Origin: Acidobacteriota bacterium
GTDB lineage: Bacteria > Acidobacteriota > Vicinamibacteria > Vicinamibacterales > UBA2999
NCBI GenBank assembly: GCA_018000455.1
Contig: JAGNJW010000002.1
Coordinates: 248,001 to 312,000, forward strand
Direction of reading: 5' to 3'
DNA length: 64,000 nucleotides
Shown here: positions 2,648 to 44,296 of the stretch, one piece after another
Position numbering within the stretch: position 1 is the stretch's first letter
Layout of the letters: every line of letters begins with the position of its first letter
Position numbers and translations under genes: made by a program
Notes under the pieces: model-generated
Databases searched by the model: none
Told to the model about the DNA's origin: nothing
The model's input: only the letters and a program-made list of their open reading frames with translations

Positions 2648-3638
2648 CGTCCACCGTGAGCATGTCCATGCTGACGGCACCCACGATTGGCGCGCGGGCC
2701 CCGCGCACCAGTGCGGCGCCGCGACCTTCCAGGCGCCGGTCGAGACCGTCGGCGTAGCCGGCGGGCACGACGGCGACCGTCATGGGCGACGGCGCCTCGT
2801 AGCGCCCGCCGTATCCGATTCGCTCGCCGGCGCGGATGCCCTTGACGGCCACGACGCGACTCGCGAGCGTCATCGCCGGCGCCAGCGGCACGGTGGTCGC
2901 CAGCGGAGCCGGCACCAGCCCGTAGAGCAGCAGACCGGGGCGGATGAAGTCCGCCCACGTACGTGAGTCGCGCAGGGTGGCGGCGCTGTTGGCGGCGTGC
3001 CCCTTGCGCCCCGCTGCACCCAGCCCGACGACGGCCTCGCGCGCCGCCGCGAAACGCCGGCGCTGCGTTTCGAAGAGCGGGTCTTCGGCGTCGTCGGCCG
3101 TGGCGAAGTGGGTCGACAGCGCTTCGACGCGCAGTGACGGGCTGGCGAGCACCTCGGGCAACGATCGGTGCAGGTTGTCGAAACGAAAACCGAGGCGGTT
3201 GAGCCCGGTGTCGATCTTGAGATGACAGGTCAGGGTGACACCGCGCGCTGCGGCGGCCGCGGCCAGGGCACGCGCTGCGGCGGGACTCGACAGGGTCGGG
3301 GTCAACGCGTGGTCGAAGACACCGGCCACGTCGCTGACGCTCAATGCACCGAACACCAGGATGCGCCCGGTGACTCCCGCGTGGCGAAGCTCCACACCCT
3401 CCTCGATGTCGGCGACGGCCAGCCACGAGGCGCCGGCCTCGACCAGGGCGCGCGCCACGGGCACCGCGCCATGGCCGTAGGCATTGGCCTTGACCACGGC
3501 GATGATGCCGGGCGGTGCCTCCGGGCCGCGCCCGGCCTCGCGGTTGCGCGCGGCTTCCTGCGCCAGGTGGGCCGACAGCGCCTGGAAGTTGCGCCGGACG
3601 GCCTCGAGATCGACCCGTGCGGCCGTGCAGCGAATCAC
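2478..3638 (-). CDS. alr: Alanine racemase
   Basis: PLP-dependent interconversion of L- and D-alanine in the cytoplasm, supplying D-Ala for peptidoglycan. The 386-residue protein shows the PLP-lysine motif VKANAYGHG (Lys50), the TIM-barrel N-terminal domain, and the C-terminal catalytic-Tyr segment IGYGGRYEA followed by PAGYADGL and SMDM motifs. The start is GTG, overlapping the dnaB stop by GTGA, which suggests coupled translation. The family normally sits next to dnaB in this kind of gene order. Confidence 0.96.
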   Translation of the reverse strand: MIRCTAARVDLEAVRRNFQALSAHLAQEAARNREAGRGPEAPPGIIAVVKANAYGHGAVPVARALVEAGASWLAVADIEEGVELRHAGVTGRILVFGALSVSDVAGVFDHALTPTLSSPAAARALAAAAAARGVTLTCHLKIDTGLNRLGFRFDNLHRSLPEVLASPSLRVEALSTHFATADDAEDPLFETQRRRFAAAREAVVGLGAAGRKGHAANSAATLRDSRTWADFIRPGLLLYGLVPAPLATTVPLAPAMTLASRVVAVKGIRAGERIGYGGRYEAPSPMTVAVVPAGYADGLDRRLEGRGAALVRGARAPIVGAVSMDMLTVDVTAIDGVSTGDEVVFLGTQGPASWQTIDAREMAAWIGTIPYEVLCRLGARVERRYI

Positions 3639-5011
3639 TCGCCCGGAGCGAGGGGCATGAACTTGGTCTGCCCCGCGATGAAAGCGGTCTTCACCGTGCC
3701 GGTCGGACCGTTACGTTGCTTGGACAGAATCAACTCGGCGATGCCGTCGGTCTCGGCGGGCACCGAGCGGTCGGCCTTGTACATCTCTTCCCGGTAGATC
3801 ATGATGACGACATCGGCGTCTTGCTCGAGGGCGCCAGACTCACGCAGGTCCGACAGCATCGGCCGTTTGTCGGAGCGGGCTTCGGGCGCGCGCGAGAGCT
3901 GCGAGAGCACGATGATGGGGACGTTCAGCTCCTTGGCGAGGCCCTTGAGCGAGCGCGAGATGGCCGCTAGTTCGAGGGTGCGGTTCTCGGCACGTCCACG
4001 CCCCGTCATGAGCTGCACGTAGTCGACGGCCAGGATGTCGAGCCCGTGCTCGGCCTGCAGGCGGCGTGCCTTGGCGCGCATCTCGAGCACACCGATGCCG
4101 GCCGAATCGTCGACGAAGAGCTGCGCTTCGGCGAGCGTCTCCATGGCGTGCGTGATGTGGCCGTATTCGCGCTGGCCAATCTGGCCGCTGAGCAGACGAA
4201 AGCTGTCGATCTTCGCCTCCGACGCCAGCATGCGCATGAAGAGCTGTTCTTTCGACATCTCGAGGCTGAACACGCCGGCCACGCCCTGACGCGGCAGACC
4301 GGCGGGCGCGGCGTGGGTGGCCACGTGCTGGCAGACGTTCAGCACGAGACTGGTCTTGCCCATCGACGGCCTTGCGGCCACGATCACCAGGTCGCCGGGT
4401 TGGAAGCCCCGGGTCATCTTGTCGAGGTCGGGCAGGTGCGTGCCGACGCCGGTGATGTACGACTGGTGCTCGAACAGCTTCTCGATCTTGGGAAAGCTCT
4501 CCTGCACGAGCTGGCGCATCGGCACGAAGCCCGCTTTGATCCGATCCTCCGCCACGGCGAAGATGGCACCTTCGGCGTCGTCGAGAATGAGGTCGGCGTC
4601 CTGGTCGGCCTCGTAGGCGTTGGCGACGATCTTGGTCGCGGCGTAGATCAGGCTGCGCAGGGTCGCCTTTTCCCTGACGATGCGCGCGTAGTACTCGACA
4701 TTGGTCGCGCGCGGCACGCCGTCGACGAGGGCGGCGAGGTAGGCGGCGCCGCCGACCTCCTCGAGCTCGCCGGCCCGGGCCAGTTCCTCGCGCAGCGTCA
4801 CGAAATCGATGGCGTTGCGCCGCTCGGTGAGTTGCACCATCCGCTCGAAGATTCGCCGGTGGGCGTCGCGGAAGAAGGACTCGGGCGTGATGATGGCGAT
4901 GGCAGTGTTGAACGCCTCGTTGTCGAGCAGCACGGCGCCGAGCACCGAGCGTTCGGCGTCGAGGTTGTGCGGCAGGGTGCGCTCGTGCGCGGGGACTGCG
5001 GTTTCGGCCAT
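3635..5011 (-). CDS. dnaB: Replicative DNA helicase DnaB
   Basis: Hexameric 5'-3' helicase that unwinds DNA ahead of the replisome. The 458-residue protein has an N-terminal domain beginning LPHNLDAERSVLGA, Walker A ARPSMGKTS, Walker B ILAVDYVQLM, and the C-terminal RecA-like core ending in the usual KQRNGPTG and FxxxxTKF region. I start at the ATG at 5011 because residues further upstream would be encoded by a period-7 repeat array (peptide SLFPVPCSPFPV) and do not resemble DnaB. Downstream alr overlaps by four bases. A terminator and repeat arrays separate it from rplI. Confidence 0.96.
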   Translation of the reverse strand: MAETAVPAHERTLPHNLDAERSVLGAVLLDNEAFNTAIAIITPESFFRDAHRRIFERMVQLTERRNAIDFVTLREELARAGELEEVGGAAYLAALVDGVPRATNVEYYARIVREKATLRSLIYAATKIVANAYEADQDADLILDDAEGAIFAVAEDRIKAGFVPMRQLVQESFPKIEKLFEHQSYITGVGTHLPDLDKMTRGFQPGDLVIVAARPSMGKTSLVLNVCQHVATHAAPAGLPRQGVAGVFSLEMSKEQLFMRMLASEAKIDSFRLLSGQIGQREYGHITHAMETLAEAQLFVDDSAGIGVLEMRAKARRLQAEHGLDILAVDYVQLMTGRGRAENRTLELAAISRSLKGLAKELNVPIIVLSQLSRAPEARSDKRPMLSDLRESGALEQDADVVIMIYREEMYKADRSVPAETDGIAELILSKQRNGPTGTVKTAFIAGQTKFMPLAPGE

Positions 5012-5020
5012 GGATAGCTG

Positions 5021-5060
5021 AACAGGGAACGGGGAACAGGGAACAGGGAACAGGGAACGG
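5021..5060. repeat. Period-7 tandem array, AACAGGG type
   Basis: Nearly six copies of a seven-base unit (AACAGGG, with AACGGGG variants) lie 10 bases upstream of the dnaB ATG. A second array of the same unit in opposite orientation lies at 5224-5256, immediately after the rplI stop codon, with an intrinsic terminator between the two. The phase and unit length are read directly from the sequence. Confidence 0.9.
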
Positions 5061-5160
5061 CACACGAGACCGCACGAGGCTCAGTTCGCCGAGGATTGAA
5101 CTTTACGCCCGACGCTCAGCGGCATTCAAGTGGCGTTCTCGGCCAGGCCGGGAACGCCCC

Positions 5161-5198
5161 GAAAAAATGGCCGGGCACACACGATCGTGTGCCCAGCC
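5161..5198 (-). terminator. Intrinsic terminator after rplI
   Basis: On the minus strand a 12-pair stem (with one G-U wobble) and a 6-base loop at 5169-5198 is followed by A and six T residues (5162-5167). It ends the rpsF-rpsR-rplI transcript before dnaB and sits between two inverted period-7 repeat arrays. Confidence 0.85.
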
Positions 5199-5223
5199 TT
5201 GGTGTGACAGCGGGACAGCCAGT

Positions 5224-5257
5224 CCCCTGTTCCCCGTTCCCCGTTCCCTGTTCCCCT
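5224..5257. repeat. Period-7 array, inverted copy next to rplI stop
   Basis: Four to five copies of CCTGTTC/CCCGTTC, the reverse complement of the array at 5021-5060. The TAG stop codon of rplI (5256-5258 on the minus strand) is directly joined to the array. With the first array it can form a long inverted repeat of about 30 bases per arm enclosing the terminator. Confidence 0.88.
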
Positions 5258-5699
5258 ATTCCTTAGCGACCGTGACCTTGAGCTGGGCGGTGACGTCGCG
5301 GTGCAGCCTGACGGGTACCGTGAAGTCGCCCAGGGCCTTGATGGCGTCGGGCAGCAGAATCTTGCGACGGTCGACGTCGAAGCCCTTGGCCTTGAGCGCA
5401 TCGGCGAGGTCCTGGTTGGTGACCGAGCCATAGAGCTGCTCGGTGTCTCCCACCTTGCGGGTGAAGGCCAGCTCCAACGCCGAAAGGCGCGTGGCGATGG
5501 CTTCTGACGCGGCGCGCTCTTCCGCCTCGCGTGCTTCGGCGATCTTGCGTTCGCGCTCGACGCGCTTCTTGTTGCCGTCGGTCGCCAGCAGCGCCAGCTT
5601 CCGGGGCAGGAGGTAGTTGCGGGCGTAGCCGTCGGCCACTTTGACGATCTGGCCGCGCTCGCCCAGGTGTTCCACGTGGTCGCGGAGGATGATTTCCAT
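5256..5699 (-). CDS. rplI: 50S ribosomal protein L9
   Basis: Large-subunit protein that binds 23S rRNA near the L1 stalk. The 147-residue sequence starts with the typical MEIILRDHVEHLGERGQ and contains GYARNYLLPRKLAL, followed by the long connecting helix and the C-terminal domain. A strong ribosome site (AGGAGG) overlaps the rpsR stop codon, which fits rpsF-rpsR-rplI being one transcript. The gene ends at a TAG joined to a repeat array, and a terminator follows. Confidence 0.97.
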   Translation of the reverse strand: MEIILRDHVEHLGERGQIVKVADGYARNYLLPRKLALLATDGNKKRVERERKIAEAREAEERAASEAIATRLSALELAFTRKVGDTEQLYGSVTNQDLADALKAKGFDVDRRKILLPDAIKALGDFTVPVRLHRDVTAQLKVTVAKE

Positions 5700-7863: not shown

Positions 7864-7894
7864 CCAGCCGCCAGCCGCTAGCTGCTAGCCGCTG
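7864..7894. repeat. Period-7 tandem array, CCAGCCG/CTAGCCG type
   Basis: Just over four copies of a seven-base unit (CCAGCCG, CCAGCCG, CTAGCTG, CTAGCCG, then CTG) occupy the spacer between prs and rplY. The same unit forms two inverted arrays around a terminator at 44151-44296. Unlike that locus, no terminator or second array is visible here. Confidence 0.85.
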
Positions 7895-7908
7895 TCGTCG
7901 CTCGTCGT

Positions 7909-33397: not shown

Positions 33398-33467
33398 AAT
33401 TCTCTCGTTCCTGAGACCCGGGCGCGCCCACGCGCCGCTTGTGAAGGATTTCGCAAGAGCCGCGTAG

Positions 33468-33497
33468 ATGGTAGTCAACCACACTGGGCACAGTCAA
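33468..33497 (-). promoter_or_regulatory. Candidate promoter of the nuo operon
   Basis: Minus-strand TTGACT (33492-33497), an 18-base spacer and TACCAT (33468-33473) predict a transcript start near 33461, about 64 bases before the nuoA ATG. No other convincing promoter is seen across the nuoA-to-nuoN run. Confidence 0.5.
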
Positions 33498-33532
33498 ACG
33501 CCCTACCCACGATTACTGGTGGCCTCAGCATC

Positions 33533-35011
33533 ATGATTCTCCCACCCATGGCAGCCGTGGCGGGCGCTGCACACGATTCCATCGCCCCAGGGCCGGCCGA
33601 GCCCATGCGAGTGGCCTGGTTCAGCCCGATGCCACCCTCGATGTCTGGCATCGCGGCCTACTCGGCGGAGCTCTTGCCGCGGCTCCAGAGCCCGGCCCTG
33701 CACGTGGACGTCTTTGCCGAGCCCCCGGGCTGCGACAGCCCCGGCGTGATGGCCGCCCGCGAGTTCGTCTGGATGCACCGGCGGCAGCCGTACGACCTGA
33801 CGGTCTACCACCTCGGCAACGCGCGCTGCCATGACTACATGTGGGGATATCTGTTCCGCTACCCCGGCCTCGTCATCCTTCACGACGCCCAGGTGCATCA
33901 GGCGCGCGCGCAGTCGCTGCTCGAACGGTGGCGGCCGCGGCGCGCCGACTACCTGGCCGAGTTCGCTGCCAACCATCCCGACGCGCCGTCCGACCTGGGG
34001 CTGCTGTTCGAGGCGGGCCTCGGCGGCTCGCTCTACGCGCATTGGCCGCTGGTGGATCTCGTGCTGAAGACAGCGCGGCTGGCCGCCGTGCACAGCCCGG
34101 CGCTGGCGCGGCGACTGTGCGAGACCAGCGGCGTCGACGTGGAGACCGTGCCGATGGGCGTGGCGGATCCCCTGGAGGAACGGGCGACGCTGACCGCGGC
34201 GGAGGTTCGGGCGCGGCACTGGGTGCCGCAGGAGGCGGTGGTGGTCGGCGCCTTTGGCGGGGTCACGCCTGAGAAGCGCCTGCCGGAGCTGCTCGGCGCA
34301 GTGGCCGCTCTGGCCGAGCGTCAGCCGCACCTGCACGTGCTGGTGGTGGGCGCGGCGGCCGCCCACTACGACGTGGCCGCCGATGCTGCCGAGCGCGGCC
34401 TGGCAGATCGCGTGCACGTAACCGGCTTCGTCGACGACGCCGACCTGGGCGCGTATCTGGCCGCCACCGACATCTGCGCCTGCCTCAGGTGGCCGTCGAA
34501 CGGCGAGACGTCGGCGTCGTGGTGGCGGGCGATGGCGGCCGGCCGGGCCACGATCATCACCGACCTCGTGCACCAGCCGGAACTGCCGGTGGTGGACCCA
34601 CGCGGATGGCGCACACTGGGCGCGCCCGGTGCGGCGCCGGTGGCGGTGGCGATTCCCATTCTCGATGAACGCCACACGCTCGTCGAGGCGCTCGACGTGC
34701 TGGCGCGCAGCGCCACGACACGCGTCGAGATCGGCAGCGAGGCGCGGCGCTACTGGCGGGCCCGGCACACGCTCGAGCACATGGCCGAGCCGTATCGCAT
34801 CCTGCTGCCACGCGCGGCCGCGCGGCGGGCGCCCGCGGTGGAGCTGCCGGCCCACCTCAAGGTCGAGGGAGACGAACACCTCACGGCGCTGCTCGCGCCG
34901 TTCGGCCTGGACACGCCTACCGGCGTGTCTGGGGGGGTGACGACGGGACGGCGGCGGCCGCTTACGCCATCGACTGCATCCGGCGATCGAGCTCGGCAAC
35001 AGCGGCGGTGA
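33533..35011 (+). CDS. Glycosyltransferase family 4-like protein
   Basis: A probable GT-B retaining glycosyltransferase. Of 492 residues, the conserved part starts at MRVAWFSPMPPSMSGIAAYS (ATG 33605), which is an equally possible start. Further support: YLFRYPGLVILHDAQVHQ in the first Rossmann domain, and VVGAFGGVTPEKRLPELL and VHVTGFVDDADLGAYLAATD in the second. The usual nucleotide-sugar EX7E region is altered (NGETSASWWRAMAAG). The last 17 residues overlap, antisense, the small gene ending at 34962. It is divergent from the nuo operon and probably makes envelope glycans. Confidence 0.82.
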   Translation: MILPPMAAVAGAAHDSIAPGPAEPMRVAWFSPMPPSMSGIAAYSAELLPRLQSPALHVDVFAEPPGCDSPGVMAAREFVWMHRRQPYDLTVYHLGNARCHDYMWGYLFRYPGLVILHDAQVHQARAQSLLERWRPRRADYLAEFAANHPDAPSDLGLLFEAGLGGSLYAHWPLVDLVLKTARLAAVHSPALARRLCETSGVDVETVPMGVADPLEERATLTAAEVRARHWVPQEAVVVGAFGGVTPEKRLPELLGAVAALAERQPHLHVLVVGAAAAHYDVAADAAERGLADRVHVTGFVDDADLGAYLAATDICACLRWPSNGETSASWWRAMAAGRATIITDLVHQPELPVVDPRGWRTLGAPGAAPVAVAIPILDERHTLVEALDVLARSATTRVEIGSEARRYWRARHTLEHMAEPYRILLPRAAARRAPAVELPAHLKVEGDEHLTALLAPFGLDTPTGVSGGVTTGRRRPLTPSTASGDRARQQRR

Positions 35012-44144: not shown

Positions 44145-44150
44145 CCTCGC

Positions 44151-44191
44151 AGCCGCCAGGGGCTAGCGGCTGGCGGCTGGCGGCTGGCGGC
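44151..44191. repeat. Period-7 tandem array, CGGCTGG/CTAGCGG type
   Basis: About five copies of a seven-base unit (three perfect CGGCTGG copies at 44167-44187) lie 7 bases upstream of the SDR start. An inverted array of the same unit is at 44266-44296, and an intrinsic terminator lies between them. Confidence 0.88.
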
Positions 44192-44210
44192 ACGTTTCGT
44201 CACGTCGCCT

Positions 44211-44247
44211 GAAAAACGAAGGGCCCGGCGGATGTCCACCGGGCCCT
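44211..44247 (-). terminator. Intrinsic terminator after the rubredoxin-like gene
   Basis: A perfect 9-pair stem (AGGGCCCGG with CCGGGCCCT, 44220-44247) with a 10-base loop is followed on the minus strand by TCG and five T residues (44212-44216). It ends the rubredoxin-like transcript before the SDR gene. Confidence 0.85.
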
Positions 44248-44265
44248 CGTCATGTGCTCTCGAGT

Positions 44266-44296
44266 CTAGCCGCCGCCCGCTAGCCTCCAGCCGCCG
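44266..44296. repeat. Period-7 array, inverted copy beside the rubredoxin-like gene
   Basis: Units CTAGCCG, CCGCCCG, CTAGCCT, CCAGCCG and CCG lie 6 bases beyond the stop of the 44303-44593 gene. It is the reverse complement of the array at 44151-44191, and the two flank the terminator. Confidence 0.85.

Follow-up and report, generated by a model that had tools for sequence, protein, structure and literature searches.

Inverted heptamer arrays between rplI and dnaB

The window, that is the whole stretch of 64,000 nucleotides analysed here, belongs to a genome of 5.19 Mb in 54 contigs (G000), the rplI relatives of which are Acidobacteria; the class is probably Vicinamibacteria. On its minus strand, the genes rpsF-rpsR-rplI-dnaB-alr-radA follow each other in this order (names from translations), and 244 bp separate rplI from dnaB, both of them essential genes. 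This gap contains two heptamer arrays in inverted orientation with the intrinsic terminator of rplI between them. A second gap of the window, in which the initial annotation had noted the same layout with an unrelated unit, has heptamers of GGCTRGC (44150–44295) and likewise a terminator, and a further array stands singly:

3635..5011, minus strand: dnaB (replicative helicase; name from translation), the gene downstream of the gap
5020..5058, plus strand: arm 1 of the rplI-dnaB pair, the heptamer GAACAGG (GGGAACR) repeated 5.6 times, G-rich
5169..5198, minus strand: rplI's intrinsic terminator, flanked by the two arms; its hairpin has 13 bp in the stem and 4 nt in the loop, with a TTTTTT tail at about 5163–5168
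5219..5255, minus strand: arm 2 of the rplI-dnaB pair, the inverted heptamer repeated about five times, G-rich when read in the direction of rplI
5256..5699, minus strand: rplI (ribosomal protein bL9; name from translation), the gene upstream of the gap
7864..7907, minus strand: single-arm GGCTRGC array 3′ of the stop of prs (ribose-phosphate pyrophosphokinase)
44150..44191, plus strand: arm 1 of the second locus, GGCTRGC heptamers that precede a short-chain-dehydrogenase-like gene, 11 bp before its start
about 44221..44246, minus strand: terminator hairpin between the arms of the second locus, kept in the genus-mates G010, G012 and G013 despite differing arms
44266..44295, minus strand: arm 2 of the second locus, degenerate inverted GGCTRGC heptamers just 3′ of the stop of the upstream gene

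Arm 1 of the rplI-dnaB pair (AACAGGG or GAACAGG, depending on the register) lies 8 bp upstream of the dnaB ATG; it is G-rich on the plus strand and therefore C-rich (GTTCCCTG) in the sense of dnaB. Arm 2 touches the TAG stop codon of rplI (cta on the plus strand, 5256–5258). Folded as RNA, the spacer is predicted to form an outer stem of 32 bp with an energy z-score of −10.0, and none of 200 shuffled sequences folds as strongly. The initial annotation had described an AACAGGG array beside dnaB, its reverse complement at the rplI stop, an intrinsic terminator between the two and arms able to form an inverted repeat of roughly 30 bases; these observations are confirmed.

The dnaB frame is open through the array (window positions 5012–5065), and the longest ORF begins at 5065 and encodes FPVPCS-like repeats. 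Position 5065 is probably not the true start; the start at 5011 is based on the codon-usage prediction and on the conserved N-terminus in relatives. Automatic annotation of dnaB may accordingly yield a false N-terminus from an ORF running through the array. An Rfam search of the window returned a tRNA as its sole match.

Period-7 arrays at ORF edges across the genome

We analysed a contiguous sample of 464 kb of the source genome, in which genes and gene starts were predicted by a home-made codon-usage model. Its intergenic DNA (38 kb) contains eight strong arrays of period 7, compared with 0.0 in shuffles and with one array in about 426 kb of predicted coding sequence. The other periods from 3 to 25 yielded no intergenic array, save 14 and 21, which are multiples of 7, and two arrays at period 15; only 7 and its multiples stand clearly above the shuffles. 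Because period 7 dominates the intergenic arrays and shuffles give none, the arrays between rplI and dnaB are not a product of chance.

A search of the whole genome for GGGAACN returned 96 overlapping triplets. Pooling of pattern matches with the contiguous sample gave a placed set of 45 intergenic arrays of the families GGGARCR and GGCTRGC, which is a count of at least 45 from sampled stretches, the sites beyond the contiguous sample having mostly been found by the GGGAAC pattern. The commonest units are GGGAACA (92), GGGAGCA (44) and GGGAACG (23). The merged contig used for array placement and for the pair, terminator, stop-codon, arm-matching and orthologue analyses contains a duplication of 2 kb, and its coordinates above 240000 are shifted by +2000.

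In 42 of the 45 arrays, the G-rich strand has its 5′ end towards the closest ORF, at a median distance of 2 bp versus 93 bp at the other end. This 5′ end lies within 40 bp of an ORF in 43 of the 45 (29 at stops, 14 at starts), and arrays before an ATG occupy the ribosome-binding region directly. The sequences at two of the three orientation exceptions suggest small genes missed by the predictor (rpmJ and a zinc-ribbon ORF). Random orientation and a lack of association with gene ends, the outcome that would have spoken against the initial annotation, were thus not found, and its view that these are more than random simple repeats extends to an orientation-specific layout found genome-wide.

Wherever a gap of the source genome holds two arrays, they are inverted (11/11). 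Five such gaps occur in the contiguous sample, which was not chosen by motif, versus 0.33 expected for independent edges. Divergent genes flank one of 13 array gaps versus 57 of 244 gaps; convergent gaps also carry arrays, and many arrays are single, with no partner arm. In one region (G000:C5:9000–18000, about locus 2315–2827), two inverted arrays surround a small ORF resembling a four-helix-bundle protein of the 23S intervening-sequence type, and several more arrays within 4 kb form a local cluster.

TAG accounts for 19 of the 29 stops touching arrays compared with 221 of 535 comparison stops (P = 0.012). TAGGG often continues into the first array unit, and the TAG bias may reflect arrays seeded from TAGGG. 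Stop codons in all three frames as the general purpose of the arrays were rejected because GGGAACA contains no stop codon.

Terminators lie downstream of 11 of the 29 stop-adjacent arrays and upstream of none, which identifies the terminator as a bystander preceded by the array. The one between the rplI-dnaB arms is an ordinary rho-independent terminator, whereas the arrays sit outside it. The association of arrays with terminators, part of the initial annotation, is accordingly present at these 11 stops, with the terminator incidental; as a defining part of the element it was rejected, since it is found at just this fraction of arrays.

Known heptamer repeats and related genomes

The layout resembles that of heptamers in Xanthomonas and Nostoc (GGGAATC and GGGGA(C/T)T), which are intergenic and dispersed genome-wide (Rehm et al, 2015; PMC4692102). 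They lie no more than 50 bp from an ORF, either 3′ of a stop on the sense strand or upstream of a start on the antisense strand, with the 5′ neighbour ORF closer (mean 28 versus 160 nt); convergent inverted pairs number 70–75 per Xanthomonas genome, and 83% of the sites are common to two species (PMC4692102). Like these repeats, the arrays of the source genome are tandem heptamers with GGG tracts, non-coding, near stops or starts, in the same orientation and with convergent inverted pairs. They differ in phylum and in their units, GGGARCR and GGCTRGC, and no GGGNATC unit is among the commonest units listed above; in contrast to the published repeats, acidobacterial genus-mates swap the unit at the same site and relatives use units without G tracts. 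As the layout has been published for GGGAATC (PMC4692102), this kind of element is already known. The inverted pair of ORF-edge arrays between rplI and dnaB is very probably the same kind of object as the convergent Xanthomonas GGGAATC pairs, beside which it is best filed with a different defining unit. The available parts of PMC4692102 and of PMC4679880 contain no description of unit matching between arms or of unit turnover at fixed positions, and we found no literature report on tandem repeats in Vicinamibacter. New here are genus-mates that keep array edges with another heptamer, arms that match in a multi-unit genome, and A-rich units and periods of 7–9.

The repeats of Xanthomonas and Nostoc were shown to form quadruplexes in vitro; their function was left open by the authors (PMC4692102). 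By analogy, the G-rich strand behind stops, or antisense before starts, might alter transcription or translation as a quadruplex, with which the shared orientation is consistent, as are the rplI-dnaB arms, each of which has four or more GGG tracts separated by loops of 4 nt. The same layout, however, is built from units incapable of three-tetrad quadruplexes, namely GGCTRGC in the window and AACAAAG, AAAGGCA, CAGATNT and ATTGACG in relatives. Because units without G tracts share the layout, quadruplexes are not its common denominator, and we regard quadruplex regulators as unlikely.

A second published system, TAACTGA heptamers directly before start codons, is described for marine Beggiatoaceae, Cyanobacteria and Bacteroidetes by MacGregor (2015; PMC4679880). 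These repeats share with the arrays of the source genome that they end a few nucleotides from start codons, often with no ribosome-binding site, next to genes without a pattern of functions. TAACTGA, in contrast, is a single unit, mostly in one orientation at starts and nearly devoid of inverted pairs, and was not found in the arrays of the source genome.

Genus-mates differ in their units. GGGAACN triplets number 96 in the source genome and 3, 38, 2 and 46 in G010, G011, G012 and G013, respectively, while the counts of GGGNCYC in the same order are 1, 44, 134, 2 and 108. Between rplI and dnaB, both arms are present in G011 and both have changed to GGGNCYC-type units, while the gap of G010 has a GGGGCTG array at the rplI edge only. 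Seven array gaps and seven array-free gaps were then compared with their orthologues in four genus-mates, all draft assemblies, using one chimeric query each. A period-7 array is present at the same ORF edge in 15 of 21 informative orthologues versus 1 of 21 controls (Fisher's P = 1.4e-5), after removal by eye of truncated, mis-sliced and N-filled cases; unfiltered, with an N run scored and unusable cases included, the counts are 16/24 versus 1/22. The kept arrays are mostly of another heptamer unit. Two of the seven sites, rplF and rpoA, have an array in no usable genus-mate orthologue. Position and complementarity, not sequence, seem to be constrained.

This turnover bears on the proposal of the initial annotation that the block is a small mobile or structural element. 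Dispersed copies, inverted ends and a fixed orientation would suit a MITE-like element of inverted arrays and terminator, and REP sequences and MITEs are likewise short dispersed intergenic inverted repeats. Here, though, the arms are tandem arrays of a variable unit with no shared core or consensus palindrome, and the cores between them, judged by eye, are unrelated at different loci and resemble ordinary terminators or promoters. In orthologues of the short-chain-dehydrogenase gap, the terminator core, again judged by eye, aligns while the arms are GGCTRGC in the source genome, GGGACCR in G012 and GGG-type in G010. In addition, the arrays abut ORFs rather than random targets. With unrelated cores and arms found singly, a mobile block was rejected and a MITE-like origin is highly improbable. 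The structural half of the proposal is plausible, because arms within a gap share their unit in a multi-unit genome and relatives retaining both arms have changed both.

Other genera of the family contain many units, AAAAAGG, AACAAAG, AAAGGCA, CAGATNT, GGGAGTC, GGCTNTC, TTCGCNA, GTAGTGG and ATTGACG among them, and periods of 8 and 9 besides 7. In the unit-rich genome G005, all eight within-gap pairs of arms match in inverted and none in direct orientation, compared with 6.7% of random array pairs of this genome matching in either sense. Inverted matching within gaps is found for 17 of 40 pairs in G031 and 3 of 10 in G040, where the noise is greater, in part owing to longer repeats and to gaps with several arrays being counted as pairs; by inspection, G031 adheres less strictly than the source genome to an outward orientation of one strand. 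The two arms do not mirror each other in unit order (stem scores average 19.7 versus 19.0 with unit order shuffled), and A/G variants of the GGGARC family are shared no more by arms within a gap than by arms from different gaps (P = 0.31). The arms thus share a unit rather than a copied block, and the similarity to shuffled order gives no sign of selection at the level of base pairs. With unit order not mirrored, a precise palindrome or an arm copied as a block is unsupported.

The rplI-dnaB gap of G005 shows the same layout with a unit incapable of quadruplex formation: an A-rich ACGAAAA/ACGAAGA array follows the rplI stop and precedes the rplI terminator. A contig assigned to a 'Bifidobacterium breve' MAG (CALQBJ020000201.1) encodes an rplI 65% identical to that of Acidobacteria with dnaB adjacent, is apparently a mislabelled bin, and carries a TTCTGAG heptamer run in the dnaB leader. 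G031 contains a longer-period repeat (GATCTGGTGAT / ATCACCAGATC) in inverted copies with AGAT tetranucleotide runs, which recurs in several gaps (G031:C1 near contig 33408–33756; G031:C2 near contig 72465–72943).

Unit diversity also bears on the possibility that an RNA-binding protein of the S1, Csp or CsrA type binds the arrays, analogous to the suggestion for the Beggiatoaceae TAACTGA repeats (PMC4679880). Inverted pairs would then arise because the protein recognizes opposite strands at starts and at stops; the location of arrays in the ribosome-binding region is consistent with this, and species-specific unit sets would resemble a changing recognition code. The units of G005 and G031 are, however, too diverse per genome for one binding protein, and arrays occur in convergent gaps as well, so we consider such binding to be quite unlikely.

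Possible gene-boundary stem or mutational by-product

For the observed position, orientation and co-occurrence of arms, the unit matching within gaps and the replacement of units at conserved positions, we tentatively propose a mechanism that we hold to be possible, if somewhat short of an even chance. Slippage by 7 nt would grow and rewrite the arrays, which would be retained where they are placed exactly outside an ORF. In gaps with both arms, complementarity would be kept because RNA crossing the junction folds into a long stem, enclosing the terminator and promoter and including the ribosome-binding region of the downstream gene. Such a stem would set the two genes apart from each other, either as a block to read-through translation or as a double-stranded site for cleavage. 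On this account the stem would form in cells and be the target of selection, and the function of the pair is probably that of a gene-boundary stem. For the explanation as a whole, an ORF-edge array pair together with a boundary stem, we see the balance as even. In its most general form, any unit of 7–9 nt, inverted at both gap edges, would serve as a sequence-independent boundary element, a reading we consider possible but rather doubtful. Evolution would keep position and complementarity and freely replace the sequence, so that the functional object would be the stem across the gap.

Several observations speak against a stem. Many arrays are single and the rplI-dnaB gap of G010 is one-armed, which shows that pairing of arms is not essential; neither the variants nor the unit order of the arms indicate special likeness, and a G-rich arm could fold as a quadruplex in place of the stem. 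An alternative is an origin without function, in which a mutational process makes arrays of 7 (or 7–9) nt and copying across the inverted repeat by template switching carries the unit to the opposite gap edge. Purifying selection would then do no more than halt the arrays at ORF borders, and a deletion bias would clear the DNA between array and ORF. Polymerase-linked slippage has been proposed for heptamers (cited in PMC4692102 and PMC4679880), and unit matching without mirrored order, the wholesale change of units between genus-mates and the frequent single arms agree with such an origin. Slippage alone, however, would not be expected to point the G-rich strand so strictly outwards in the source genome, or to let different units occupy the same ORF edges in different species. 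We regard this origin, too, as a possibility on the less probable side. Boundary stem and mutational by-product remain close: conserved positions and strict orientation favour the former, single arms and unmirrored unit order the latter.

Heptamer arrays at gene edges are found in several phyla and have no accepted role, quadruplexes having been the leading idea so far. A clade with many kept sites, swapped units and units free of G tracts that follow the same plan separates position and pairing from sequence, and therefore makes the choice between function and mutational by-product directly testable, by comparison and with simple reporters.
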